Of a DNA stretch of 11,766 nt, positions 1 through 11,766 are shown in pieces; positions within the stretch are counted from its first letter, which is position 1; each line of letters begins with the position of its first letter. The DNA is from Nitrospinota bacterium (GTDB taxonomy: Bacteria; UBA8248): NCBI GenBank assembly GCA_003506735.1, contig DNYS01000005.1:1-11766 (forward strand), read 5' to 3'. A program made the position numbers and the translations under genes. Under the pieces are notes generated by a model. The model made no database searches. It was given only the letters and a program-made list of their open reading frames with translations, and was not told the origin of the DNA.

Positions 1-135
1 AATCGAGCAAAGGAACTGAGAAGCACTACATAGTCAGTTCGCCGCGAATGATCAGATACATATTGAATTGAGCGAAAACATGAGTGATGTTCAGCTAGCC
101 TAGGTGTACAATTCAGATGAATTTTTGGACAGGAC
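1..135 (+). mobile_element. Terminal part of a decayed insertion element (left copy)
   Basis: This segment matches, in inverted orientation, 3485-3608, at roughly 70-75% identity by eye over about 125 bases. Shared blocks include AGGAACTGA, TACATATTGA and CAGGAC. The outer tip (110-134) recurs almost perfectly, 24 of 25 bases, in inverted orientation at 6487-6511. Three copies sharing one sharp end ('TGTCCAAAAATTCA' read inward) look like the terminus of an insertion sequence. The element body would extend leftward out of the window. I see no intact reading frame in it. The family is not identified. Confidence 0.5.
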
Positions 136-331
136 GGGGGGGAGGGGTATTTCGGAAGGAGAGGATGAGAGCCCAAATCCGCACGATGCCACCTCGAGCT
201 GGGTGATATTTGATTAAACCCGGATTCCCATGTGGATTCATGATTTTCACGCTTTTCATTCCAGCGTCGGTTTATAATTCAACCCGCATCATCCATCTTT
301 TTTTCATCATTCCGTAGATACGAGGTCAGCT
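136..331 (+). promoter_or_regulatory. Upstream region of the first amidohydrolase with a candidate -10 box
   Basis: No gene is seen here. TATAAT occurs at 273-278, about 54 bases before the ATG at 332, but no convincing -35 hexamer lies 16-18 bases upstream. GAGGT, five bases before the ATG, is a reasonable ribosome binding site. Confidence 0.3.
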
Positions 332-1378
332 ATGCATAGAGGCGGAACAATTCCAAGCCAGTCCAGCGTTACGGACCTATGGTGCTTCATTCTCGGCAGT
401 ATCCTGATTTCATCATTCGTCCAGCCGCAACAGGTATTTTCCGGCGAGAAGAGGCGATCAAATTCAGCCGCCAGTCCTTATCGTGGCCCCATCATCGATG
501 CGCATAACCACCCCAAGAGAAAGAAAATTCACTTGAAGGAGTTTTTCGGAGAAGCGAAAGCGGCAAACGTTGAAAAGGTCATCGTCATGACAACGCCCAA
601 CGACTACCGCAAAGGAGAGCAGAGGCTTTTACGGAACGCCCGGAATTATTCCAGGGCCATCATTCTGTGTTCCTCCAATTTTGTCGGGTTCATCCATGTG
701 GAGGACCTTGATCGGGCACGGCGGGAGCTTAGGCAAGTGAGGGAGGATTTGAAAAACGGGGTTTGCGGCGGCGTCGGGGAAGTGGGACTGCGGCACTACG
801 ATAAGACTGCAAAACAAGGGGGGAACTATCGAGGCCAGCCCGAGGTTTTAATTAATCTGGACCACGCGCTGGTGCTGGAGATGATTAGCCTCGCCGACAG
901 GCATGGCGCACCCGTTGTCATGCATATCGAGCCCGTCTACAGAGTAGCCGGCATCGATAAACTTTCAGAGGTCAAGAAATGGTACAAAAAAACCTGTCGC
1001 CGGTATCCGAGGGCGAAACTGATCGCCTCCCATAACGGAATGATGTCGCCTAAGGATTTAGAAGATCTTTTTTTGAGTTGCGCAAACCTTTTTGCCGATA
1101 TCAAGTTCTTGCATTCCCGAGGCTTGGTCGCCGGGTTCCAAGATCTTCATCCCATGAACGACCTTGATCTCGAACTTTTCCCGCACTGGGGCCAAATGAT
1201 TAAAAAATATCCAGAGCGTTTTATTTTCGGGTCGGATTGGAAATACGGCCGCCGAAGGTCGTTTGGTGACTATACTGGGCATCTCCGAGCCGTGCGTAAG
1301 ATGCTTGAGGTTCTGGCCCCAACCATTCAAAGGAAGGTTTTGTACGAAAACGCAAAACGAGTTTTTTCGATCGACTGA
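332..1378 (+). CDS. Amidohydrolase / TatD-like metal-dependent hydrolase with N-terminal export or anchor segment
   Basis: A 348-residue TIM-barrel metal hydrolase of the amidohydrolase superfamily (amidohydrolase_2/TatD-like). All expected metal-binding positions are visible: the H-x-H of DAHNH (H58, H60), Glu150 in G-E-V-G-L, His198 in VVMHIEP, His234 in LIASHNG and Asp302 in FGSDW. Residues about 15-31 are strongly hydrophobic, followed by a polar linker and then the barrel from about residue 52, so the protein is probably exported or anchored by its N-terminus. The start is supported by GAGGT five bases upstream. It ends in TGA with no homology beyond, so that UGA is a real stop. Substrate cannot be told from sequence. 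It is convergent with the UGSC unit and so not in its operon. Confidence 0.85.
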   Translation: MHRGGTIPSQSSVTDLWCFILGSILISSFVQPQQVFSGEKRRSNSAASPYRGPIIDAHNHPKRKKIHLKEFFGEAKAANVEKVIVMTTPNDYRKGEQRLLRNARNYSRAIILCSSNFVGFIHVEDLDRARRELRQVREDLKNGVCGGVGEVGLRHYDKTAKQGGNYRGQPEVLINLDHALVLEMISLADRHGAPVVMHIEPVYRVAGIDKLSEVKKWYKKTCRRYPRAKLIASHNGMMSPKDLEDLFLSCANLFADIKFLHSRGLVAGFQDLHPMNDLDLELFPHWGQMIKKYPERFIFGSDWKYGRRRSFGDYTGHLRAVRKMLEVLAPTIQRKVLYENAKRVFSID

Positions 1379-1417
1379 AGGTCCCTGCCTCGCTCGGTTT
1401 AATCGAGATTTCCCTGA

Positions 1418-1475
1418 CTCCACAAAAAGTGGATCACATATAGATTGAATGGGTAAAGAAGTTGGCTTGGTGGGG
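1418..1475 (+). repeat. 58-bp direct repeat, copy A
   Basis: This segment aligns without gaps to 3372-3429, with 49 of 58 positions identical by my count (cores such as AGTGGATCACAT and the end GGTGGGG). Copies A and B lie on either side of the UGSC two-gene unit. Neither copy lies in a recognised gene. It could be a footprint of insertion, a duplicated regulatory sequence or a remnant of a dispersed repeat. Confidence 0.7.
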
Positions 1476-1559
1476 ATTTTGCCACGCTTGAGATCCATCA
1501 AGCGACCTTTTGATGATATTCAGCCAAGGCAGGATCCGATTTTGCGGAGCGCAGGTCTC

Positions 1560-2608
1560 TCAACCCTTTATTTCGCGCGTGACGGATTGGGTGGCTCCGA
1601 AACTCTGAATGTACATGCTGTGCTGCACCGCGTCGCCGCCCACAATTACGATGATCCCGTCTGGGTCCGCACAAAGAGAAACTCAATCGGGATCCGCCAG
1701 AGGTTCCACCTCGTCGCGGCAGTAGCTTTCAGGAAAATCCTCGGCGGGATTCCATGTATTATTCCACAGGTACTCTTTCAGCTCCTGCTTGGAAACCTTG
1801 TCGCGTTTCAGAATCGCGGCGTGCTGAGGACAGATGGTCAGAAGAATTTCCCCTCCGACGAGGTAGGAGTTCGAGCCCATGATCTTTAAAGAATTCGCGA
1901 GCATGTGCATTAGATCGGTGGCGGTTTTCGAGCTCCGATCGTTGAGGTCAAAGATGCCGCCGGCGCCGTACACCGTTACCACGCTTTGATCTTCCCTGAA
2001 TCTCCGCTCCACGTGCAGTGGTTCCCAGGGATTTTCGGCGGCGTTTTCGGCCGCGCAGAAGGTGTATTTTCCTGGCTGTCCTGCCGTGCTCCTGTCGAGT
2101 TCGCCCGGATGGGCGCCGCCCACATTGCGGAGGACTAAATTCACGGCTCGGCCGACCGTGGCGTTTGGGCGCAAGCCGGGGCCGAAAAGGTTGTAACCGT
2201 AGTTGAAGCCGAGCTCATCGACAACCGGTCCGTTGAGGATGAGGAGCGGAGCAACAGCGTGAGTCGTCGCCTGCGTGCCGTAGAGATTGCAGGGTTTTCC
2301 AGCAGGGCTTCAAGGGCGGAGAGTACTACGGGCATGTATTCGGGCGCACAACCCGCCATCACGGCGTTCGCGGCGACGACCTCCACCGTCGCCTCGCCTC
2401 ACCGGGGCGGAATGAGCCCAATCGCCTCGCCAGGGCTGCGTCCAGATCCGGCGATTATCAACTCAACACGTTCTGGAGTGGGTGGAACGACCGGGAGTCC
2501 ATCTGTCCATCCCTTTCCGTTCAGGAAATTGATTTGGGCTTCCAGACTGGTTGGCGCGCGAACTTTCTCCGCAGGAGAACCCGCCTCATATGCCGATGCT
2601 TGGCTCAT
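1560..2608 (-). CDS. UGSC-associated conserved protein; candidate selenoprotein, interrupted by two UGA codons and one frameshift
   Basis: The open pieces assemble into one protein of about 349 residues. It starts MSQASAYEAG, runs through GWTDGLPVVPPTPERVE, meets UGA at 2399-2401 (residue 70, IPPR-UGA-GEATVE), and continues through NAVMAGCAPEYMPVVL. A lost base near 2290-2298 then shifts the frame. The other frame resumes with NLYGTQATTHAVAPL, FGPGLRPNATVGRA and PGKYTFCAAENAAENPW. A second UGA at 1683-1685 (PLADPD-UGA-VSLCADPD) precedes GGDAVQHSMYIQSFGAT and the final TGA at 1560-1562. I recall this conserved uncharacterised family beside UGSC genes, but cannot name a function. Fifteen bases separate it from the UGSC stop, with AGAGG before the ATG, so they form an operon. 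The first UGA has a good SECIS-like hairpin; the second does not. It is either a selenoprotein with a homopolymer error or a decaying gene. Confidence 0.6.
2372..2393 (-). promoter_or_regulatory. Candidate bacterial SECIS hairpin after the first UGA of the UGSC partner gene
   Basis: In the mRNA sense, five bases after the UGA, GGCGACG pairs perfectly with CGTCGCC (7 bp) around the loop GTGGAGGT. The loop begins with G and carries further G residues, and starts about 13 bases after the UGA. Bacterial SECIS elements are short hairpins inside the coding sequence just after the Sec codon, with G near the start of the apical loop. This loop is slightly close to the UGA; pairing the flanking G and T would shorten it. 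Confidence 0.45.
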
Positions 2609-2623
2609 GGGCTGGGGACCTCT

Positions 2624-3241
2624 CTACTTGAAAACCTGTTTGGCGCGAAAAGCGCGTTTGGGCGCGGCGTATTCTTTTGCGGCGTACGCTTCGGCGAGCG
2701 ATCTGGCGTTTTCGGTGATGATCCGGACGACTTCGCTTACAGCGTCTTTGGCCCGGGCTTCCGCATCAGGCCCCAGCAGGGAACTTGTCGGATGCGGCAG
2801 CACGACGAGGGGCATCTCCGGCAGGCCGAGCGAGCCGCATTCGCACTTGGCGAGCGCAGGGAATTCATCCGTCGTTAGGGTGGCGGTCGGGATGCCTCGC
2901 CGTTCCAGCTCGATTCCATCGTGGATACTCCACGAAGTACAGGACCCTCAGTCTCCAATCCCGTTGACCACGGCGGTGCATTGCGACTTGATATCGTCGA
3001 GCATTTTTTCCGGACAAGGGTGCGCGACGCCCAGTTTTCGAAAGTGGACCACTTTTGAAAACCCGAGTTGCTCTGCAACAGTTTCCCCCACCTTTTCCAG
3101 AATAAGCCTGACATTGGTCTTTCCATTGTTGAGCAGGCCGAGGGCGCGCTCATCCGGACCCTCTCTCCGCTCGGCCAACCGGTAGCGGGGTGGCCGGGCC
3201 ACGCCGCAGGGGTCGATTAAAACATTCTGCTCGATCACCAT
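2624..3241 (-). CDS. UGSC family selenoprotein (Sec at UGA 2948-2950)
   Basis: A 205-residue protein when UGA at 2948-2950 is read as selenocysteine (residue 98). The context is VVNGIGD-U-GSCTSW, the signature after which the UGSC family is named. The frame stays open on both sides, upstream NNGKTNVRLILEKVGE and downstream IPTATLTTDEF, VVLPHPTSS and ERRGIP, ending in TAG. Family members carry Cys or Sec at this position and are thought to be redox proteins; the reaction is not known to me. I chose ATG 3241 (MVIEQNVLID): AGGGGAG lies just upstream and a good promoter at 3307-3336 rules out starts near 3532. A 6-bp hairpin sits 12 bases after the UGA. The partner gene follows 15 bases downstream. 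A standard gene caller would split it into an N-terminal and a C-terminal fragment. Confidence 0.92.
2919..2935 (-). promoter_or_regulatory. Predicted bacterial SECIS of the UGSC selenoprotein
   Basis: In the mRNA sense, TCGTGG pairs perfectly with CCACGA around the five-base loop AGTAT. The stem starts 12 bases after the UGA and the loop 18 bases after it, with G at the second loop position. This matches the usual position and loop preference of bacterial SECIS elements recognised by SelB. Confidence 0.75.
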
Positions 3242-3306
3242 CTCCGGTGCTCCCCTTGGATATTCATGCCGTAAAATAATTAATTGCGGGTATGTGGCTT
3301 TCAGAG

Positions 3307-3336
3307 ATAATAGGCTTTCCGAGTTTCCTTTGACAA
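3307..3336 (-). promoter_or_regulatory. Sigma-70-type promoter for the UGSC operon
   Basis: Read on the minus strand, TTGTCA (3336-3331) and TATTAT (3312-3307) each match five of six consensus bases, with an 18-base spacer. Transcription would begin near 3300, leaving a leader of about 60 bases before the ATG at 3241. This supports the start chosen for the UGSC gene. Confidence 0.6.
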
Positions 3337-3371
3337 CTACCCCTGCCAACGACGGCGCTCCGTAGGGTGTT

Positions 3372-3429
3372 CTCCACAACAAGTGGATCACATGTAGATC
3401 GAATATGTTGAAAAGTTGGCCTGGTGGGG
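3372..3429 (+). repeat. 58-bp direct repeat, copy B
   Basis: Partner of 1418-1475 (49/58 identical, no gaps). It lies just upstream of the UGSC promoter and about 55 bases from the insertion-element end at 3485. The same orientation as copy A means the UGSC operon sits between two direct repeats. Confidence 0.7.
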
Positions 3430-3484
3430 CAAGACATTTCAAATTCCCCGCCATGGACACGATCGATACAATATTCCAAATCCT

Positions 3485-3608
3485 GTCCTGACCAAAAGTC
3501 CCCTGAAATGTAAATCTAAGCCAGTTGAACATTACTCAAATTTCCCCTCGAATCAATATGTAGCTGGTCGTGCGCGGCAAACTGACCATGTAAGAGCTTT
3601 CAGTTCCT
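3485..3608 (-). mobile_element. Terminal part of a decayed insertion element (inverted copy)
   Basis: The reverse complement aligns with 11-135: AGGAACTGA at one end and CAGGAC at the other, with conserved blocks such as TACATATTGA between. Both copies also translate to related strings (GTE..Y.VS.PR...YIL), suggesting a once-coding or conserved element tail. The element body would extend rightward, where a transposase remnant is found. Confidence 0.5.
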
Positions 3609-3755
3609 CTGGCCAATTTAGGGGGGGCTCTTTCGTTTGCTTCTCTTTGGTCAGCCTTCGGAAAGCCCTAGAGTACCTGGAAGAAACCCGTTTTCATTAT
3701 TCGGGGTTTTTAGCGGCCATACTAGTTAGCACCGGTTATAGACCCCTATATGGAA

Positions 3756-3919
3756 AACAGATTTGAGGGGCCCATATTGGGTTTCGGTCCTGTGGGTTGT
3801 GAATTTGTGGTTTGCCATCGACAGGAGATTTTCGAAGACGAGAGCCTTTGCGTCGCCTGGGTTGAGCAATTTGACAACTGTGGCGAGGATGTGGCGAAAG
3901 CCAGGAATAGATTTTTCAT
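3756..3919 (-). pseudogene. Remnant of a transposase/integrase N-terminus
   Basis: On the minus strand the text can be pieced together across two frameshifts: MKNLFLAF, then RHILATVVKLLNPGDAKALV followed by FENLL, then a diverged stretch ending near 3756. This resembles, from memory, the N-terminus of a common class of integrase-type transposases that reads MKFLLA...HxLATxxKLLGPGG..A.VAENLLLKHQ. No catalytic DDE region is present. With the terminal sequence at 3485-3608 it looks like an element that lost its central part. Intermediate bases 3609-3755 hold no gene I can support. Confidence 0.4.
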
Positions 3920-4054
3920 GGCGGGGAAGGCTAGGTGGACCGCCAATCAAGGGCAAGGCGACGAAAGGTTTGAATTCAGGAGAGAATTACTTATTCGCCG
4001 GCAGGAGCCCCGGTTCCCGCATCAATCCGACTTTAGATGTTTCGTTTTCCCTTG

Positions 4055-4063
4055 TGCTATAAT
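4055..4063 (+). promoter_or_regulatory. Extended -10 promoter of the dodecin gene
   Basis: TGC directly before a perfect TATAAT (4058-4063) forms an extended -10 element, 54 bases before the dodecin ATG. No good -35 is seen, as is common for extended -10 promoters. Confidence 0.55.
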
Positions 4064-4116
4064 ATTTAATTATCAGTAGGCTAAATTGAGAGTTTTTTGC
4101 TTAATAGGAGGTAATC

Positions 4117-4320
4117 ATGGCTATCGCCCGAGTGACCAAGATTACAGCTTTATCACCTATAGGTTTCAGGAACGCCATCGAGGATGGACTGACTCGCGCC
4201 TCTAATTCCTTGCGCGGAATCACGGGTTTGGAGGTTCTATCTCAAAAGGCAACGGTGGAGGACGAAAGAATCGTAGAATTCCGGGCCACCATGGAAGTGA
4301 CCTTCATTCTGGAGGATTAA
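4117..4320 (+). CDS. Dodecin family flavin-binding protein
   Basis: A 67-residue protein, the usual dodecin length, with the typical beta-alpha-beta-beta pattern: MAIARVTKITALSPIGF, the helix RNAIEDGLTRASNSL, then LRGITGLEVLSQKA and the closing strand ATMEVTFILED. Dodecins form hollow dodecamers that store or sequester flavins in the cytoplasm. The tryptophan that stacks on flavin in the best-studied members is here replaced by Gly37; many bacterial relatives share this, so the ligand may differ. A consensus AGGAGGT lies four bases before the ATG and an extended -10 promoter stands upstream, so it is probably well expressed as a single gene. Confidence 0.9.
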   Translation: MAIARVTKITALSPIGFRNAIEDGLTRASNSLRGITGLEVLSQKATVEDERIVEFRATMEVTFILED

Positions 4321-4521
4321 TTCGGGTTCCAAAATTTTCAGGAAATAATCAAAAACTCAAAAAAACGTCTCGCTAGCCAAAGCTCAGGCGGCTTTGTTGA
4401 CTATGAAGATTCCTTCTTGCCGGTGGGACGTATTTTGATGTGGGCTATTTTTTAGGAAAGACATTAGGGGAGCATCCTCAGAGGTCATCTGATGCTAGAA
4501 TGAGCCTATTCAAGGAATAAA
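4321..4521. other. Intergenic region without a supportable gene
   Basis: About 200 bases between the dodecin and the next amidohydrolase. A weak AAAGC/GCTTT hairpin lies near 4380-4395, not followed by a T-run, so I do not call it a terminator. TTGACT at 4397-4402 resembles a -35 box but has no matching -10. I see nothing else. Confidence 0.4.
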
Positions 4522-4548
4522 ATGGGAAACGCTGGCTTAATGCTATGA
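4522..4548 (+). CDS. Possible 8-codon leader peptide overlapping the amidohydrolase start
   Basis: ATG at 4522 has AAGGA five bases upstream and encodes MGNAGLML before TGA at 4546-4548. This TGA overlaps the ATG of the next gene (4545-4547) as ATGA. The main gene has no ribosome binding site of its own, and TAA at 4518-4520 excludes an upstream in-frame start. It could serve translational coupling. It could equally be a chance ORF. Confidence 0.25.
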   Translation: MGNAGLML

Positions 4549-5423
4549 CCCCGCCTATCATCGATTTCCGCTTCACCTGCCCCATCCCTTTGGGCCTGGA
4601 CCGCTACCTGAAACCGAAAGGACCCACAGCGGATTTCGCGGCGCATTACGGTAAAAACGTCTACGGTGAGGACTCGGATCTCCACTATATGACCCCGGAC
4701 GAACTCGTGGCTTGGATGGACGAGCAGAGTGTCGACAAGGTGGTCATCAAGTCGGCGGATAACACCACTACGACGGGGAGCAAGTTCCCCGGAGAAGACT
4801 TGCACGCATTTATCAAGGATTACCCCGACCGTCTCATCGGGATCGCTGGCGCCGACCCCCATAAGGGAACGGATGCGGTCCGCGAATTGGAGCGCGATGT
4901 CAAAGAATTCGGTTTTCGGGGAGTGAATCTGACTCCGTTTGAGCAAGACCTTTTCGCCAATGATAAGAAATACTATCCCATCTACGCCAAGTGTGTGGAG
5001 CTAGACATCCCGGTGCTGCTCCATACCTCCACCAATCTGACGCGGACCAAGCTGGCCGAGTACGGCCGGCCCATTTACCTGGATGGAGTGGCTAAGGATT
5101 TTCCGGAACTTCGCATCGTTGCGGTTCACGGAGGCTGGCCCTGGATTCTTGAAATGATCGCCGTAGCATTGAAGCAGCCGAACATCTATATCGAAATCAG
5201 CGGGACACACCCCCGCTACATCGGCATGCCCGGAACGGGCTGGGAACCTCTTCTGGTGTATGGGAATTCTCTTCTTAAACACAAAATTCTGTGGGGTTCA
5301 AACTGGCCGATGATAGGACCCAAGGAGAGCCTCGAAGAATTCCGTAAGTTTCCCCTGAAAGAAGAAGTCAAAGACCTTTGGTTCGGAGGAAACGCGTTGC
5401 GGGTGCTCAAGTTGGACAAATAA
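4545..5423 (+). CDS. Amidohydrolase_2-fold protein with substituted metal ligands
   Basis: A 292-residue TIM-barrel protein of the amidohydrolase_2 (ACMSD-like) group. Recognisable blocks are the opening strand IIDFRF, then LIGIAGADPHKG, RGVNLTPF, PVLLHTSTN (His160), RIVAVHGGWPW (His195) and KILWGSNWPM (Asn253). The usual H-x-H after the first strand is replaced by F8-R9-F10, and the metal-binding Asp of G-S-D is Asn253. Two central histidines are kept. It may bind a mononuclear metal differently, work without metal, or not be an enzyme; related IDFR-type proteins do occur in databases as I recall. It ends TAA and has no signal peptide. Start discussed under the leader peptide. Confidence 0.85.
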   Translation: MTPPIIDFRFTCPIPLGLDRYLKPKGPTADFAAHYGKNVYGEDSDLHYMTPDELVAWMDEQSVDKVVIKSADNTTTTGSKFPGEDLHAFIKDYPDRLIGIAGADPHKGTDAVRELERDVKEFGFRGVNLTPFEQDLFANDKKYYPIYAKCVELDIPVLLHTSTNLTRTKLAEYGRPIYLDGVAKDFPELRIVAVHGGWPWILEMIAVALKQPNIYIEISGTHPRYIGMPGTGWEPLLVYGNSLLKHKILWGSNWPMIGPKESLEEFRKFPLKEEVKDLWFGGNALRVLKLDK

Positions 5424-5456
5424 CGTCACCTGACCTCCCCCCCAAACCGGTCCAAG

Positions 5457-5476
5457 CCGAATGAGAGAAAATTCGG
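5457..5476. other. Hairpin between convergent genes
   Basis: CCGAAT pairs with ATTCGG around an eight-base loop. It lies between the plus-strand amidohydrolase and the convergent Grx-DinB gene, where a terminator is expected, but no T-run follows on either strand. Confidence 0.25.
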
Positions 5477-5574
5477 TACTAATTCGGACGGGTCGCCCAA
5501 TCCGGGGGATTTTCACAAGCAAGAAGCGCCACACCGCAGAGCAGATCATTCCTAAGCCGCACGATACCAGCAGC

Positions 5575-6324
5575 CTAGAATAAATCTTTGGGAACGGGAA
5601 CCTCCTTGTAATCCTCGCGGGCAAGGGGCCGATCCGGCTCGATGCCTATCGTCGGCATGTAATGGTACGTCTGCCGAAGATGCTGGAAGGCGTGACCGAG
5701 GGCAAGCTCTATCAGCTCATGGACGGTGATCGGTCCCATGTAGCTCTTCACCTTCTTGGCGAGCTTCTCGCCGTGTGTGAGAAACTCAGCCAGCTCGGAC
5801 TCGATCCGATCACCAAAGGCGCAAATTTCCTCATGCGTATGGTAGTTCTGGGCGAGCTCCTCATAGCGCCGGACCATATCGCGGGAGTACTCCCCGCTCT
5901 CGTGCGCCTCGATGCCAAGTATGGGACGCTCGAAACTGTGCCATAGAAGCTGGCGCAACGAGCGCGGCCTGCCCGGGGTTATCCAGTCGAGTTGCTCGAG
6001 CGAGAGTTGATTCACTGCGCGCTTTATGGCGTCGAACACCAGGCGGTACATTTCCATCATATTTTCAGGGTGCATCGGGCCGCCTATCTTTGCGTCGATG
6101 TCGAAAGTCTTGCAAAGATCTTCGACGTTATAGCCCACCACCACGTCGTCCCCGCGTACCGAAACGGGAAGCGACTTAATGCCCAGCGCCTTGAGCTCCG
6201 CCATTGCCTCAGGGTCGTTCGTGCAGTCGCGGTTGATGACTTCTATTCCGTTCGACGAGAGAAACTCTCTCGTTCGCGCACAGGTGTATCAACCGTGGCG
6301 CGTATAAACCTTAACCGGTCCCAT
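5575..6324 (-). CDS. Glutaredoxin-DinB fusion selenoprotein with UYTC active site (Sec at UGA 6289-6291)
   Basis: Read from ATG 6324 with UGA at 6289-6291 as Sec (residue 12), this gives a 249-residue protein. Residues 1-75 form a glutaredoxin domain: VKVYTRHG-U-YTCARTREFL is strand-loop-helix with U-x-x-C replacing C-x-x-C. VINRDCTNDPEA follows, then the cis-proline segment IKSLPVSV and DDVVVGYN. From about residue 85 comes a DinB-like four-helix bundle with WHSF and GHAFQHLRQ histidines, suited to metal binding. Such fusions may couple thiol/selenol redox chemistry to a DinB transferase. AGGAG seven bases before the ATG supports the start, and an 8-bp hairpin follows the UGA. Ordinary gene calling starts at Met 6204 and loses the active site. 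It ends TAG, convergent with the amidohydrolase. Confidence 0.9.
6255..6273 (-). promoter_or_regulatory. Predicted bacterial SECIS of the Grx-DinB selenoprotein
   Basis: In the mRNA sense, ACGAGAGA pairs perfectly with TCTCTCGT (8 bp) around the loop GTT. The stem begins 15 bases after the UGA and the loop 23 bases after it, with G first in the loop. A CG/CG pair with one bulged A can extend the stem outward. Position and loop fit bacterial SECIS rules well. Confidence 0.8.
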
Positions 6325-6380
6325 GGCTTGGCTCCTTTGATAGGTTTAAGCTGGAATGATGGGGCAGGCGCCGCCCGTTC

Positions 6381-6458
6381 TCAGGTTTCGCACCAATGGC
6401 GCAGCATTCCTGCCATCTTTCTCAAATAGAGTTCAAAAATTTTAGCAGAAGTCACCAT
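6381..6458 (-). CDS. Small ORF ending in C-E-T-UGA upstream of Grx-DinB
   Basis: ATG 6458 is preceded by GAGGTG with a six-base spacer, a strong ribosome binding site. It encodes 25 residues, MVTSAKIFELYLRKM followed by AGMLRHWCET, then UGA at 6381-6383. The peptide looks amphipathic and ends in a Cys; if UGA were Sec, the motif would be C-x-x-U. Read-through would give about 35 more residues overlapping the Grx start in another frame. A GC-rich hairpin follows, but its loop lies only about 10 bases from the UGA, too close for a standard SECIS. Most likely it is a short peptide gene or leader co-transcribed with Grx-DinB. Confidence 0.4.
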   Translation of the reverse strand: MVTSAKIFELYLRKMAGMLRHWCET

Positions 6459-6486
6459 GTGATTCACCTCTTCCTTTCGACACTCA

Positions 6487-6511
6487 TCCTGTCCAAAAAT
6501 TCATTTGAATT
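6487..6511 (+). repeat. Insertion-element terminal sequence, third copy
   Basis: Matches the reverse complement of 110-134 at 24 of 25 bases. The match stops abruptly, so only the terminal inverted repeat is shared. It may be a solo end left by an excised or deleted element, or the opposite end of the same type of element. Confidence 0.55.
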
Positions 6512-6577
6512 TTATGACCCTTTAATACAAGAGGTTGTGATGCGATAAAGATACATCATTAACCACATAGAAAAGGG

Positions 6578-6601
6578 AAAAAATGCCCTTATGATAAGGG
6601 C
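6578..6601 (-). terminator. Rho-independent terminator, minus strand
   Basis: GCCCTTA pairs perfectly with TAAGGGC around a three-base loop (6585-6601). On the minus strand it is followed by ATTTTTT. The geometry is that of an intrinsic terminator that would stop antisense transcription coming from the E1-like gene or insulate the Grx-DinB region. No minus-strand gene directly upstream needs it. Confidence 0.55.
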
Positions 6602-6627
6602 GGTACAGCCCGGGGAATTCCTCCTTT

Positions 6628-6654
6628 GTATGGCGAAATACTAATTCGCCATAC
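6628..6654 (+). promoter_or_regulatory. 10-bp perfect hairpin in the leader of the E1-like gene
   Basis: GTATGGCGAA pairs perfectly with TTCGCCATAC around the loop ATACTAA, 79 bases before the preferred start at 6734. There is no T-run, so it is not a simple terminator. It could be an operator for a dimeric regulator, an mRNA-stabilising hairpin or part of an attenuator with 6585-6601. Confidence 0.4.
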
Positions 6655-6733
6655 ACGGCTTCGGTATGCGATAGATATGGTTGGACGGGATCGAATATTG
6701 TCAGCAACTCGTTCCTCCGGAGAGTTACCAACA

Positions 6734-9106
6734 ATGAAACGTGAGCCCCCTCAGCCTTCTTTCGATGAGGAAGAGTTAGACATTCTTCGGCGAATCGAAA
6801 AGCGCCTTCTCTGGCTTTCCACCTACAGCATCCACTACGCGAACAACATTCGGGTTCAGGATCAGAGCATCAAGATCGGCGGCCACCAGGCCAGCTCATC
6901 GTCCGTGGTGAGTTTGATGACCGTCATGTTTTTCCGGTGGCTTCGGACCGGGGATCGGCTCGCGATCAAGCCCCATGCGTCGCCGGTCCTTCACGCCGCG
7001 CATGCCCTGCGCGGAGATCTTCCCCTGGAGCGTCTGAAAGAGCTCAGGGCTTACGGCGGTTTGCAGGCTTACCCGAGCCGGAAAAAGGATTTTTTCCCAG
7101 TGGACTTCTCGACGGGTTCTCTGGGGCTCCCCTCCGTGACCGCTTCTTTCGCCGCTTTGATGCAGTCCTACATTTTCGATCATTTCGGGCCAGACCATAT
7201 GCAGCGGTTTATCTCCTTGGTGGGTGATGCGGAACTCGATGAGGGGAATATCTGGGAAGCGCTCGCCGAAGAGTATATCCGGAACCTTGGGAATATCATT
7301 TGGATTGTCGATCTCAACCGCCAAAGTCTCGACCGCATTGTTCCGGACGGCAAAGCCCAGCAAATTCGAGATCAATTCCGCCTGCATGGCTGGCATGTCG
7401 TGGAGCTAAAATACGGAAAGCGCCTCCAGACGGCTTTTGCCCTGCCGGGGGGAGAAGCGCTTCGCCGGCGAATCGACGGTATGCCCAACAGCGAATACCA
7501 GAGTCTGATTGGACGGGACGGATCGGAAGTACGCGAAGGGCTCCTCCGGTTGAAGACGAAGCGGTATCGAGGGCTGGATCGCGTGCTCGATCATTTTAGC
7601 GATGAGGAACTGCCTGAACTTTTCGCCGATCTCGGCGGCCACGATCTCGCGTGCATCCTTGAGGCGCTGGAAGAAGCCGACGGCGTGGCCGACCAGCCCG
7701 TCATGATTCTCGCCTACACCATCAAGGGCTGGGGGCTGCCAATCGCGGGCGATCCGCTGAACCATTCCCTTCTCCTGACGGACGAGCAGATTGGCGCCAT
7801 GCGCGTGGAAGCGGGGCTGGATACCGGCCGGGAACTATCCCCGTTTCCGGAGAAGGGCCCGGAAGCGGACGTGGTCCGGAAAGCGGTTGAACGCTATGAC
7901 GCGAAGTTCCAGCCGCGGCGCGAGGCGCTGAAACCGCCTCCGGTTCCCGGTGAAATCGACACCCGTTTCTCGGATGTATTCTCCACGCAGGAAGCCTTTG
8001 GCTCGATCATGACGAATATCGGCCGGGATGAATCTCTTTCCCGCCACATCCTCACGGCTTCGCCAGACGTTGCCGTGAGTACCAATCTGGGTGGATGGAT
8101 CAACCGTAGCGGCGTATATCACCCGAGGGGAAAGACGGACTTTTTTGCGCTTCAGCAGATCCAGCGCCTCCTCAAATGGGAGGAATCCCCGCAGGGACGG
8201 CACATTGAGCTAGGCATTTCTGAGAACAATCTCATGCTCCTTCTGGCGGCGTTCGGCCTCTCCGAGGAACTTTGCGGCGTCCGCCTGTGCCCCATCGGAA
8301 CGCTGTACGACACGTTCATCGGCCGCTGTCTGGACGCGCTACGGTATGCCGTTTACAACGGCGGCCGGTTCATCATGGTGGCGACGCCCAGTGGAACGAG
8401 CCTATCCCCCGAGGGCGGCGCTCATCAGAGCATCCTCACGCCCGCGTTGGGCCTGGAGATGCCGGGTCTCGAAGCGTTTGAGCCGGCCTTCGCGGTGGAG
8501 GTCGAGTGGATTCTTCTGGATGCGATCCGCCGAGTGCTCCACGAGGAGGAATGCCCCGCCTTTTATCTCCGCCTGACGACGAAACAAGTTGATCAGAGCC
8601 TACTGCCCGGCGAGTGGCTGGCGGATTCGCTCCGACGGGAGGTGCTTCGTCAGAATGTGCTTCACGGCGGGTATCTGATCCGCTCTGCCTGGGCGCATCC
8701 GGCCTACCGGCCCGGCGTGAACGGCGTCAATCTGTTCGCGGCCGGGGCAATGCTGCCCGAGGCTGTGGCGGCGTCGGAAGTGTTGGTCAGGGAGGAAATT
8801 TTTGTGAACGTCTACGCCCTCACGAGCGCGGACCGCCTCTACGCCGACTGGCGCGCGGCCCAAAAAGCGGGGAAGCGATCCCGGCTGGCGATGATCGTCG
8901 GGGAGGAGGAGGTGGACAATCCCGTCGTCTCCGTCATCGATGGTCATTCCCAGGTGCTCTCCTTCCTAGGCGGAGCTCTTGGGGCCGAGCAGATTTGTCT
9001 GGGCAGCGATCAGTTCGGCCAGAGCGGTCTTCCGGAAGAGATATACGAGGACCTGGGGTTCGGGCAGGGCGACATCGAAGCTGCCTGCCGTAGCGCCCTC
9101 TTGTGA
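6734..9106 (+). CDS. Thiamine-diphosphate enzyme, homodimeric pyruvate dehydrogenase E1 / transketolase-like
   Basis: A 790-residue protein resembling single-chain 2-oxoacid dehydrogenase E1 (AceE-like, about 890 residues) and the broader transketolase group. The ThDP/Mg motif reads GDAELDEGNIWEA from Gly164, ending at DLNRQSLD. The pyrimidine-domain glutamate lies in GISENNL (about Glu497). AceE-like blocks follow: CPIGTLYDTFIGRCLDALRY, TPSGTSLSPEGGAHQSILTP. The C-terminal third is a transketolase C-domain. No E2 or E3 gene is beside it, so the acyl acceptor or reaction is unknown; it may act alone as a decarboxylase or ketolase. I prefer ATG 6734 (MKREPPQPSF) with GGAG about 11 bases upstream; the frame stays open to 6626, but that part overlaps the 6628-6654 hairpin and lacks similarity. 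It ends TGA. Confidence 0.8.
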   Translation: MKREPPQPSFDEEELDILRRIEKRLLWLSTYSIHYANNIRVQDQSIKIGGHQASSSSVVSLMTVMFFRWLRTGDRLAIKPHASPVLHAAHALRGDLPLERLKELRAYGGLQAYPSRKKDFFPVDFSTGSLGLPSVTASFAALMQSYIFDHFGPDHMQRFISLVGDAELDEGNIWEALAEEYIRNLGNIIWIVDLNRQSLDRIVPDGKAQQIRDQFRLHGWHVVELKYGKRLQTAFALPGGEALRRRIDGMPNSEYQSLIGRDGSEVREGLLRLKTKRYRGLDRVLDHFSDEELPELFADLGGHDLACILEALEEADGVADQPVMILAYTIKGWGLPIAGDPLNHSLLLTDEQIGAMRVEAGLDTGRELSPFPEKGPEADVVRKAVERYDAKFQPRREALKPPPVPGEIDTRFSDVFSTQEAFGSIMTNIGRDESLSRHILTASPDVAVSTNLGGWINRSGVYHPRGKTDFFALQQIQRLLKWEESPQGRHIELGISENNLMLLLAAFGLSEELCGVRLCPIGTLYDTFIGRCLDALRYAVYNGGRFIMVATPSGTSLSPEGGAHQSILTPALGLEMPGLEAFEPAFAVEVEWILLDAIRRVLHEEECPAFYLRLTTKQVDQSLLPGEWLADSLRREVLRQNVLHGGYLIRSAWAHPAYRPGVNGVNLFAAGAMLPEAVAASEVLVREEIFVNVYALTSADRLYADWRAAQKAGKRSRLAMIVGEEEVDNPVVSVIDGHSQVLSFLGGALGAEQICLGSDQFGQSGLPEEIYEDLGFGQGDIEAACRSALL

Positions 9107-9399
9107 AGGGATTGTTCTCCTCAATATTGGGAACCTTAAAATCCCGAATTTCCCATTTGTTGGTTAAAAAAAATAACCCCGAAACACGATCGGACCTCAA
9201 GGGTTGTTTGTTTAAATCTTTAACTTGAGCGGAAAACTTCAGGCTATGTCTTTTTAAAATGTCCCGCCAAGTCAACCGTAAGATCTAAATTGTTATCCAC
9301 GAGGAGAATTTTCTTTTTGTGTTCCTATATAGTTTCATGTCCCTTCTTTTTTCCCGAGCACATCAGAGATCACTTCCTGGGCGGCGGCTCCGGTTTTGT
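9107..9399. other. Intergenic region between convergent genes
   Basis: No gene is supported. It is AT-richer than its neighbours. It contains the weak terminator at 9166-9205, and nothing else I recognise. Confidence 0.5.
9166..9205 (-). terminator. Weak terminator candidate for the LeuC/LeuD-like operon
   Basis: On the minus strand AACCC (9205-9201) can pair with GGGTT (9179-9175), followed by A and eight T. The stem is short and the loop long (about 21 bases), so it is marginal, but the T-run and the place after the operon fit. Confidence 0.35.
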
Positions 9400-9930
9400 T
9401 CAGGAGGAGTTTCCTTCTTCTAGGCGTTTTTTCAGAGCGGGAATGCTTCCGCCCAGTTCAATGATTTCTCTCAAAGGAGCGGGCAAGGGTTCGGCCTCCA
9501 CGGTAATTCCCCTCGTGAGGTTCTCGATTTGCCCCGTTTTAAAATCTACCCGCATCATGTCGCTGTTTTCAAAAATTTCACTTATTCCCGGGCAAAAAGG
9601 AAGTGCGGGCAACCCTGCCGCGACGATCATCCGGTAGGTGAAGTGAGGGACGCTCTCGGCGATGAGGCCCACGCCGAGGGCGGTCATCCCAAGAAGGCCG
9701 TAGATGTGAGGATTCCCCTGGCCGAAGCGGGCGCCCGCAACTACGATGTCGCCCGGCCGGGCCCGGTCGGGAAAGTCTGGGACGAGATTGGTGAAGACAT
9801 ATCTCTTGAGAATTTCGGGGTCCGAAATACGCACGCCCTCGACAAACACCTTGGAAAATTCGAGGATATCGTCATCGAGCGATAGGTTGTCCCCGAATTT
9901 CCAGCACCGGCCTTCCATCACCCAGTTCAT
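9400..9930 (-). CDS. Aconitase-superfamily small (swivel) subunit, LeuD-like, with altered substrate loop
   Basis: A 176-residue protein with the swivel-domain opening KFGDNLSLDDDIL (LeuD: FGDN-DTD) and the domain end IENLTRGITVEAEPLP. The loop that in LeuD and aconitases reads NFGCGSSREHA is here RFGQGNPHIYG (residues 69-78), so the conserved Ser-Ser-Arg-Glu that contacts substrate carboxylate is missing. It follows the LeuC-like gene after 11 bases (AGAGAGCGGAA before ATG), clearly one operon. It probably makes a hydro-lyase (dehydratase/isomerase) with a substrate other than isopropylmalate. It ends TGA; the nine codons beyond are not conserved-looking. Confidence 0.75.
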   Translation of the reverse strand: MNWVMEGRCWKFGDNLSLDDDILEFSKVFVEGVRISDPEILKRYVFTNLVPDFPDRARPGDIVVAGARFGQGNPHIYGLLGMTALGVGLIAESVPHFTYRMIVAAGLPALPFCPGISEIFENSDMMRVDFKTGQIENLTRGITVEAEPLPAPLREIIELGGSIPALKKRLEEGNSS

Positions 9931-9941
9931 TTCCGCTCTCT

Positions 9942-11201
9942 TTAGTTTAAATACTCACGGGGATCGGCAATTTGTCCTGCCACCGCGGAAGCCGCAACCG
10001 TCGCGGCGCTTGAGAGATAGATCTCGGCTTTTCGGCTTCCCATGCGTCCCGTATCGTTCCGGGTCACGGTGGCGATGCAGACTTCCCCGTCCGCGAGCGG
10101 CCCTCCACGCCCGATGGCACAGGGACCGCAACCGGGCGGACCCACACAGGCGCCCGCCTCCAGGAAGACTTCCATGATCCCCTCCCTCACACACCGCTCG
10201 GCCACTTCTTTGCTGCCCGGGTTGATGATCATCCGAACGCCCGGCGCAACCCTCCGTCCCCGCAACACTTCCGCCGCCTCGGCCATGTCCTCGTACTGAT
10301 CGCCCGCGCATGATCCCAGGTAGGCCGCATGTACGGGCACTCCCTCGGCTTCCCGGAGCGGCACCACATTGTCCGGCAGGGGAGGGAGGGCCACCATCGG
10401 CTCTACATCGGAAAGGTTAAAGCGGTAAACAGCAAAAAACTCGGCGTCAGGGTCGCTCTCTATAGGATCGAACGGTTTGAGACTTCGCTCTTTGAACCAT
10501 TCGGATACGAGTTCATCGGCAGGGACGATGGCGGTCTTGGCCCCGATCTCAATGGGCAAGTTGCACAGCTTTACCCGGGCATCGACGCCAAGATGCGCGA
10601 GGGCCGGCCCGGTGTACTCGAATACGCGGTAGTCAGCCTGGTCGGGGCCGATCTGGCGTATGATCAGGGCCGCCAAGTCCCGGATCGTTACACCTGGAGT
10701 GAATTTTCCATCGAGCACGATCCGGATCGTCTCCGGAACACGGTACCAGTGGCTCCCTGTTGCCAGCACGGCAGGGAACTCAAACACAAGGGAGATGCCC
10801 AGGCAGCCCACGGCGCCATAGTTTGTTACGTGGATATCGTAGGCCTGTACGCACATGCCCGGCCGCACGAGCCCGATTTCCATCGGGAAAACGTGACCCT
10901 GGCCCCGCCCCGGTCCGTAGAAGTGTTTCACCCCCCAGCGCTGGACAATATCCCGGATGTTTTTGGCGCGGTTCGCCACTGCGACGCTCTGAGGAATGAT
11001 ATCGTGGTCGAAGCAGACGAAGACGCGATCCGGATTCCAGGGCCGCTCCACCCCGAGGGCGCGAAGCTGTGTGTCGGCCTCGACAACATAAAGGTCGTGG
11101 ATAGTTGCGAGGTCGGCCTCGGGATAGACGATTTCGCCCGGGCGGACGGTGGCGCGGCCCGCCGCACGTGCCATGATCTTTTCGGTAAGCGTCATGCCCA
11201 T
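9942..11201 (-). CDS. Aconitase-superfamily large subunit, LeuC-like
   Basis: A 419-residue hydro-lyase large subunit starting MGMTLTEKIMARAAG, the usual LeuC/homoaconitase opening. The three Cys ligands of the [4Fe-4S] cluster are all present: Cys298 in AAYLGSCAGDQ and Cys358/Cys361 in PPGCGPCAIG. Other blocks are VKHFYGPGRGQGHVFPME and SRKAEIYLSSAATVAASAVAG. The GDSHT-STHGA motif of LeuC is changed to AYDIHVTNYGAVG, so the active site differs from isopropylmalate dehydratase. The frame is open to TTG 11264 overlapping the previous stop, but those 21 residues look non-conserved, so I take ATG 11201. It partners the LeuD-like gene; no leuA or leuB is in view, arguing for a catabolic role. Confidence 0.8.
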   Translation of the reverse strand: MGMTLTEKIMARAAGRATVRPGEIVYPEADLATIHDLYVVEADTQLRALGVERPWNPDRVFVCFDHDIIPQSVAVANRAKNIRDIVQRWGVKHFYGPGRGQGHVFPMEIGLVRPGMCVQAYDIHVTNYGAVGCLGISLVFEFPAVLATGSHWYRVPETIRIVLDGKFTPGVTIRDLAALIIRQIGPDQADYRVFEYTGPALAHLGVDARVKLCNLPIEIGAKTAIVPADELVSEWFKERSLKPFDPIESDPDAEFFAVYRFNLSDVEPMVALPPLPDNVVPLREAEGVPVHAAYLGSCAGDQYEDMAEAAEVLRGRRVAPGVRMIINPGSKEVAERCVREGIMEVFLEAGACVGPPGCGPCAIGRGGPLADGEVCIATVTRNDTGRMGSRKAEIYLSSAATVAASAVAGQIADPREYLN

Positions 11202-11260
11202 GATTGGAGAATTTTCCCACGTCTGCTCATAGATGTCATTCGAACCTGACAGATGGAAAA

Positions 11261-11766
11261 TCAATCATAAAACTCGGGGAGGGTGAGGTATCCCTCCCGA
11301 GGCAGGTCTCTAACAAGCGGAAGCCCCTGTCTCATCTTTAGCCTTTGGACCGTGCGCAGATGGGCGAGCACGTTCCAGTAGATGTGGCGCAACGTTGTGC
11401 CGATTTCGACATGGAATAGGCCAGGCCGTTTGGGGTCTTCTTGAAATCCATAAGAATGGAGGCCGGCGGCTATTCTGTGGTAGTCAACCGGTTTTTGGGG
11501 GTCGCCCGGCCGAACCGCTTCTGGGTCCGTGTAATGGGTGAATGACAAGGATCGTAACCTTTCCTCTCCCTCTCGATCAATAATTTCACAACAAAGATCT
11601 GCCCAAGGCTGCATAAAGGCAATGATGGCCTTCCGGTCGGGGGCCACTTCTGGCGGTACGTGCCGAATTCCGGCAGCGATGAGATCGGCGATAATCTTGG
11701 CAGTCTCTGGAAATGTATAGCCCGCCCGATAAAGCACTTCCCCCGCCCCCGTCTTGCGCCTCACCG
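11261..11766 (-). CDS. Unrecognised protein, 5' end beyond the window
   Basis: An open frame enters from the right edge and ends with TGA at 11261-11263. At least 167 residues are visible, so the gene is partial here. I do not recognise the family. It is rich in charged and aromatic residues, soluble-looking, without membrane segments; notable stretches are AAGIRHVPPEVAPDRKA, WADLCCEIIDREGEER, LHSYGFQEDPKRPGLFHVE and REGYLTLPEFYD. The next gene on the strand, LeuC-like, begins 59 bases later, so they are probably in one operon and may share a pathway. GTG near 11764 is possible as a start but sits at the window edge. Confidence 0.6.
   Translation of the reverse strand, partial: VRRKTGAGEVLYRAGYTFPETAKIIADLIAAGIRHVPPEVAPDRKAIIAFMQPWADLCCEIIDREGEERLRSLSFTHYTDPEAVRPGDPQKPVDYHRIAAGLHSYGFQEDPKRPGLFHVEIGTTLRHIYWNVLAHLRTVQRLKMRQGLPLVRDLPREGYLTLPEFYD

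Follow-up and report, generated by a model that had tools for sequence, protein, structure and literature searches.

A Glutaredoxin–DinB Fusion Family with a Very Probable UGA-Encoded Selenocysteine in Three Phylum-Level Groups of Bacteria

The present analysis concerns a stretch of 11,766 nucleotides from a Nitrospinota bacterium (GenBank assembly GCA_003506735.1, contig DNYS01000005.1, positions 1 to 11,766), the whole of which is called the window here. On its minus strand lies a gene that joins an N-terminal glutaredoxin (Grx) domain to a DinB/S-transferase-like (DinB/STL) domain. As far as sequence can tell, this gene almost certainly belongs to a family of selenocysteine (Sec)-containing proteins in which UGA codon 12 is read as Sec. 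We reach this assignment because TGA is conserved throughout the family, the codons before it are under selection, a hairpin following it is conserved, SelB and tRNA-Sec are present, and homologues with Cys at the same position exist. The features of the gene on which this argument draws are the following.

5575..6324, minus strand: proposed Sec-glutaredoxin/DinB fusion gene, 249 residues from the ATG at 6324 to the TAG at 5577-5575, translated with TGA as a residue
6332..6336, minus strand: Shine-Dalgarno sequence AGGAG, 7 nt 5' of the ATG at 6324, read from the sequence
6289..6291, minus strand: UGA codon 12, proposed Sec, first position of U-Y-T-C; TGA in 71/71 loci, Cys in four proteins
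6280..6282, minus strand: Cys15, last position of U-x-x-C and presumed resolving Cys, present in 21/21 rows of alignment A3 that reach the position
6255..6273, minus strand: hairpin resembling a selenocysteine insertion sequence (SECIS), perfect 8 bp with a GUU loop, ACGAGAGA-GTT-TCTCTCGT
6202..6204, minus strand: ATG codon 41, the annotated start of close homologues (209-residue protein) in database listings

Conservation of the UGA Codon

Codon 12 (TGA, 6291-6289 on the minus strand) is the sole interruption of the 249-residue frame. An earlier note, made from the window alone, had placed this UGA at the first Cys of a glutaredoxin C-x-x-C motif, and the family bears this out, with TGA at the aligned codon in all 71 loci whose codon was read, which come from 70 genomes in three phylum-level groups. 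The 71 loci are the sum of 52, 17, and 2 from successive read-outs; L011, L127, L066, and L148 were located separately after pattern misses, and for L065 (G290), which is a broken frame, only the stretch around the UGA was used. One of the relatives is a second Grx–DinB copy in the window's own genome (L002, G000:C35:2528-3292), which is 51% identical and also carries the TGA.

Of the 18 genomes from the window's phylum, 17 (the window's own and 16 further ones) have a full-length match that contains a single TGA; G016:C349, a piece at a contig end, and all Grx-only matches were excluded from this count. When 290 genomes, these 18 among them, were searched, the only full-length matches outside the phylum were those in G112, G250, and G102. 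The fusion occurs in all five genomes of the phylum of G112, one of which (G290) has it as the broken frame. The phylum of G102, which we label Rokubacteria-like, has a full-length fusion in 48 of its 95 genomes, not counting the partial matches in G367, G351:C100, G327, and G348, standalone DinB, and Grx-only matches. This label rests on the names of related database proteins, which include Candidatus Tectomicrobia, Nitrospinaceae, Candidatus Rokubacteria, Acidobacteriia/Terriglobia, and Deltaproteobacteria. Grx-only matches with an in-frame TGA (e.g., G000:C247:9563-9730), many of them in frames of about 65 residues, were seen in 10 of the 18 phylum genomes; G012 has such a match, and the full-length fusion was not found there.

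The frame is constrained on both sides of the UGA. The ratio of nonsynonymous to synonymous differences per site (pN/pS), calculated from the 15 pairs formed by six sequences from the window's group, is 0.054 for codons 1-11, 0.172 for codons 13-40, 0.269 for codons 41-80, and 0.199 for codons 81-249. Codons 1-11 are thus under strong purifying selection. In the same comparison, pS falls from 0.64 ahead of the UGA to 0.28 over codons 13-40 and rises again to 0.51-0.52 further downstream, and this synonymous dip at the hairpin region is what an RNA signal beneath the code would give.

The Hairpin 3' of the UGA

The perfect 8-bp hairpin that the earlier note had seen 15 bases past the UGA is present at 6273-6255, its stem beginning 15 nt and its loop 23 nt past the UGA. 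According to the available part of a 2026 catalogue of prokaryotic selenoproteins (PMC13188914), the bacterial SECIS model has a loop of 3-9 nt, a stem of 4-16 bp, a spacing of 16-37 nt, a G within the first two positions of the loop, and an energy of -7.5 or below. The window hairpin, with a stem energy of -9.6 kcal/mol, fits this model, which is the outcome of the SECIS check that had been proposed for it. Only one of 1000 synonymous recodings of the window peptide gave a hairpin that was as good or better.

For the family as a whole, seven pairs were followed (bases 18-24 with bases 30-36, base 0 being the U of the UGA) and compared with 1000 synonymous recodings. All seven are kept in 21 of the 40 distinct sequences (69 loci, L066 and L148 being left out), with a null mean of 0.36 and a maximum of 3, and 252 of the 280 cells are paired vs 160 in the null (maximum 181), numbers to be read with the stem having been picked on these same sequences and the sequences being related. 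A smaller set (52 loci, 30 distinct sequences) behaves in the same way, 19 of its sequences keeping all pairs (null mean 0.3, maximum 3). Two-sided changes are seen at pair 21/33 (A-T to C-G) and at pair 22/32 (G-C to A-T), the latter being broken, as A-C or A-G, in 13 of the 40 distinct sequences. The stem energy reaches -7.5 kcal/mol in 16 of the 21 sequences scanned, those that fall short being L018, L026, L049, L050, and L051. The conservation of the hairpin goes further than the encoded residues require. An Rfam scan of the window (E ≤ 1) returned no match, which says little, as Rfam was assumed to hold no general bacterial SECIS family.

Selenocysteine Machinery and Cysteine Homologues

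The window's own genome encodes both SelB (375 bits, cut-off 242) and tRNA-Sec (73.7 bits, gathering score 47). The SelB cut-off is exceeded in 2 of 14 control genomes, and tRNA-Sec is over its cut-off in 16 of the 18 phylum genomes vs 5 of the 14 controls; the two phylum genomes in which it was not found are the least complete ones (70% and 67%). In the Rokubacteria-like phylum, SelB is over the cut-off in 44 of the 48 genomes that carry the fusion.

The database homologues considered number 212 and derive from three protein searches, two of which contributed the best 120 of 1122 and the best 120 of 323, the window's own truncated frame (P0002) being among the 212. Of these listed matches, 206 start past position 12, four read Cys there, and two read Trp. 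Public annotation therefore mostly loses the active site, as the selenium codon is taken for a stop. The earlier note had suggested looking for Cys homologues with the same two-domain layout, and the four listed Cys proteins (P0044, P0055, P0072, and P0127) are of exactly this kind, being full-length and having both domains. Placed on a tree with 88 rows, in which 54 of 85 inner branches are well supported, the four Cys forms cannot be explained by fewer than two changes; the 66 rows of the tree without a group are truncated proteins, known by their protein only and not by their codon.

Homologues that lack the Grx part, which had been named beforehand as grounds for giving up the fusion, do occur, but as separate paralogues. 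Standalone DinB matches without Grx were found in G347-G351 and G360, with weaker ones in G172 and G292. Four of these paralogues, L165-L168 (in G349, G350, G351, and G347, respectively), belong to one Rokubacteria-like genus, and these four genomes, the ones checked for it, all hold a full-length TGA fusion as well.

Two Domains and a Histidine Triad

The layout of the protein and the residues proposed for its metal site are as follows.

6094..6324, minus strand: glutaredoxin domain, residues 1-77, from the AlphaFold model
5602..6087, minus strand: DinB/STL four-helix domain, residues 80-241, with the DinB fold
5938..5940, minus strand: His129, predicted metal ligand, His in 65/65 rows of alignment A3
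5692..5694, minus strand: His211, predicted metal ligand, His in 65/65 rows of alignment A3
5680..5682, minus strand: His215, predicted metal ligand, His in 65/65 rows of alignment A3

The Pfam Glutaredoxin family (PF00462) is matched by residues 4-54 with an E value of 5e-10 and 39.8 bits, above the cut-off of 22.9, and the Grx fold and the UxxC motif are present as well. The match of residues 97-218 to DinB_2 (E 6e-4, 20.7 bits) lies below the curated cut-off of 24.8; this cut-off is exceeded by the relatives P0044, P0055, and L049, and 61 of the 65 members of A3 match the family at E ≤ 0.01. With NCBIfam, the window protein gives 49 bits for YruB, 42.3 for Uxx-star, and 41 for NrdH, all below the respective cut-offs. 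In the AlphaFold model, which has a predicted local distance difference test score (pLDDT) of 94.2 and a predicted template modeling score (pTM) of 0.90, both the Grx and the DinB folds are recognized.

His129, His211, and His215 are invariant across all 65 aligned members, down to 24% identity. Their equivalence to H67, H160, and H164 of BstA was assigned from the pattern and the order of the residues rather than from a superposition at the residue level. In BstA-H of Bacillus subtilis, the three such His are the only completely conserved residues, and the activity is metal dependent (PMC5815605, available part). The presence of two domains and of a conserved His triad is well supported by the sequences, and the triad would be predicted to bind a metal.

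Working Model and Alternatives

In the mechanism that we propose, SelB and tRNA-Sec would insert Sec at UGA codon 12, steered by the hairpin just 3' of it. The product would be an NrdH/YruB-like dithiol glutaredoxin (U12-x-x-C15) joined to a DinB/S-transferase-like metal domain (His129, His211, and His215), the latter holding its substrate at a divalent metal; this substrate may be a disulfide or a small molecule that is oxidized or electrophilic. The selenolate of Sec12 would attack the substrate or its thiol adduct, Cys15 would resolve the resulting selenenyl-sulfide, and a thioredoxin-reductase-like flavoprotein would recharge the Sec12/Cys15 pair. Metal binding, domain cooperation, turnover, and substrate are here only what we infer. 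Taken as a whole, the selenoprotein combined with this two-domain metal/selenol model is the explanation that we favor, with some reserve. For the part of it that has the selenol cooperating in cis with the metal site, we put the chances at about even.

Several observations weigh against this picture. The hairpin is weak in L049, which keeps 4 of the 7 pairs, and in L051, L118, and L124, with 5 of 7 each, and a stem scan found no good hairpin in L049 and L051. Among the fusion genomes of the Rokubacteria-like phylum, SelB was not found at E ≤ 1e-40 in G351, G368, and G378, the last of which is rated 100% complete, and G337 has only a fragment of it. At the metal site, the diverged member L148, which lies outside A3, has Gln at the position of His211, and the ligands of the mycothiol S-transferase of Mycobacterium tuberculosis are two His and one Asp rather than three His (PMC10950700, available part). 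Finally, the gene neighbors of the fusion differ between lineages.

A more specific form of the model, which we consider a tentative proposal at most, is that the tethered Sec-glutaredoxin brings the selenolate to the His3 metal site and so takes the place of diffusible thiols like bacillithiol or mycothiol. It is suggested because no tested thiol pathway is common to all carriers. Neither BshA nor GshB is over its cut-off in any of the 18 phylum genomes, BshA giving weaker matches only in all 18 and GshB one partial match in G014. EgtD is over the cut-off in 8 of the 18, with two fragmentary genomes in addition, and is absent from the seven genomes of genus g3; GCS2 occurs in 6 of the 18, all of them g3. 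In G013, none of BshA, GshB, EgtD, and GCS2 was found, yet the fusion is kept. Were the proposal true, the family would represent an enzyme like the glutathione S-transferases, built of glutaredoxin and DinB, in lineages that share none of the tested low-molecular-weight thiol pathways.

The alternative that survives best is that the protein is a DinB/STL transferase using a low-molecular-weight thiol, with the Sec-Grx arm doing no more than recycle this thiol or the mixed disulfides that it forms. Acting on mixed disulfides of thiols is the classical role of glutaredoxins. EgtD is found, at E ≤ 1e-15, in 10 of the 18 phylum genomes, and 6 of the 18 have GCS2. The DinB/STL enzymes that have been studied use bacillithiol or mycothiol (PMC5815605 and PMC10950700, available parts), which also speaks for such a transferase. 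We nevertheless consider it doubtful, as no tested pathway covers all carriers, and for the same reason the selenol-dependent transferase or reductase with a small thiol cofactor that the earlier note had suggested stays a mere suggestion. Moreover, the Grx part is nearest to the YruB and NrdH models, whose proteins are not typically glutathione dependent.

We have also considered that the DinB part is a mere scaffold or substrate docker and that the protein acts as a general Sec-glutaredoxin. This is rather unlikely, because none of the three His varies among the 65 aligned members, even at 24% identity, and a scaffold would have no need of such constancy.

That the UGA does terminate translation and that the functional product is the 209-residue DinB protein starting at Met41, as in the public annotation, is very improbable. 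Such a reading would account for the 206 of 212 listed proteins that start past the UGA and for the standalone DinB paralogues without Grx, but it is contradicted by the pN/pS of 0.054 before the UGA, the AGGAG 7 nt 5' of the ATG at 6324, the TGA in 71 of 71 loci, the Cys forms that run continuously through the site, and the conserved hairpin. A start at codon 41 would also split the Grx fold, which spans residues 1-77 in the model.

The least probable alternative, that the UGA is read as Trp or another residue through a reassigned code or a suppressor tRNA, finds its support in the two database homologues that read Trp (P0016 and P0021), but these are identical at 203 and 221 of 250 positions to L026, whose DNA reads TGA, so that we rejected them as evidence for a non-Sec residue and regard them as probable table-4 gene calls, while four other frames of the window (those checked) end in a TGA stop codon, tRNA-Sec and SelB are present, and the remaining four full-length proteins carry Cys.

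Gene Neighborhood and Other Genes of the Window

In the genera g2, g3, and g6 of the window's phylum, genes of a single cluster follow the fusion on the same strand at nine loci (one member checked: Peptidase_M20). Several loci have a pyridine-nucleotide disulfide oxidoreductase (one member checked) near the fusion, and several have a membrane-protein-like gene without a Pfam match. In the other lineages, an enoyl-CoA hydratase cluster (one member checked) lies upstream in 12 of 23 loci, from 8 nt to about 4 kb away. An FGE-sulfatase cluster (one member checked with Pfam) is found within about 4 kb, on the opposite strand, in 10 of the 23 loci outside the phylum, including L098; FGE-sulfatase is the other domain type of EgtB. 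No neighbor was common to the loci of the window's phylum and those of the other lineages, and the neighborhood was therefore dropped as a clue to the substrate. The choice of neighboring frames was crude, and antisense frames entered some of the clusters.

The window holds further genes worth recording. On the minus strand, positions 2627-3667 encode a likely second selenoprotein, of the UGSC family (NF041046, 122.6 bits, cut-off 125), with an in-frame TGA in ...GIGD-U-GSC.... Positions 2138-2608 of the same strand form an open frame whose TGA lies within ...GLIPPR-U-GEATVEVVAANAVMAGC... and for which no NCBIfam match was found; it may run on in another frame (1686-2174), as judged by eye only. 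Divergent from the fusion, on the plus strand at 6626-9106, lies the gene of an 826-residue protein resembling pyruvate dehydrogenase E1 and transketolase (205 bits with the aceE model, cut-off 860), and genes of its cluster are found near the fusion in six g3 loci. The gene directly 3' of L002 is related to the partial gene at 11261-11764 of the window; neither the gene after L002 (L099 copy) nor this window piece has an NCBIfam or Pfam match.

Comparison with Known Systems

The 2026 catalogue counts 119 prokaryotic selenoprotein families and subfamilies (PMC13188914, available part). The fusion family was not found among these 119 in the part available, and "DinB" occurs 0 times in the main text, in line with the suggestion of the earlier note that a Sec glutaredoxin fused to DinB is an undescribed class. 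In the literature searched, whose coverage is partial and leaves absence unproven, there was no report of a DinB-superfamily member with Sec or of a Sec-Grx/DinB fusion. What we did not find described, and what would be new here, is thus the fusion architecture of the Sec-glutaredoxin and a DinB/STL member with Sec. The family would add to the catalogued selenoproteins and would bring selenium into the DinB/S-transferase superfamily.

On the glutaredoxin side, the protein resembles the catalogued Sec-glutaredoxin (PF00462, UxxC) in being a Sec Grx; unlike that entry, which is a Grx, it is fused to a DinB/STL metal domain. Close to it as well is cGrx1 (structures 7c10 and 7c12), the selenoprotein Grx of a clostridium. 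Uxx-star (NF041212) likewise has a small Grx-like domain with Sec in first place, but the window protein scores 42.3 bits against its cut-off of 66. HUGP/GUXX-star (NF045501) shares the arrangement of a Sec-Grx domain inside a fusion, and here the score is 25.2 vs 325, only the Grx part of the model being matched. NrdH (TIGR02194, 41 bits, cut-off 85.75) and YruB (TIGR02196, 49 bits, cut-off 88.55), which are single-domain Cys proteins, rank near the top when the Grx part is compared with NCBIfam.

On the DinB side, the four-helix fold and the three conserved His are those of the DinB/S-transferase-like superfamily, to which BstA/YfiT, mycothiol S-transferase, maleylpyruvate isomerase, and EgtB/OvsA belong. 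Members of this superfamily are known to carry second domains (PMC5815605, available part). The natural Cys versions of the present family would serve as controls in finding out what a metal-thiol active site gains from a selenol, and the feature that sets the family apart from the other members of the superfamily is that its second domain would be an N-terminal selenocysteine glutaredoxin.
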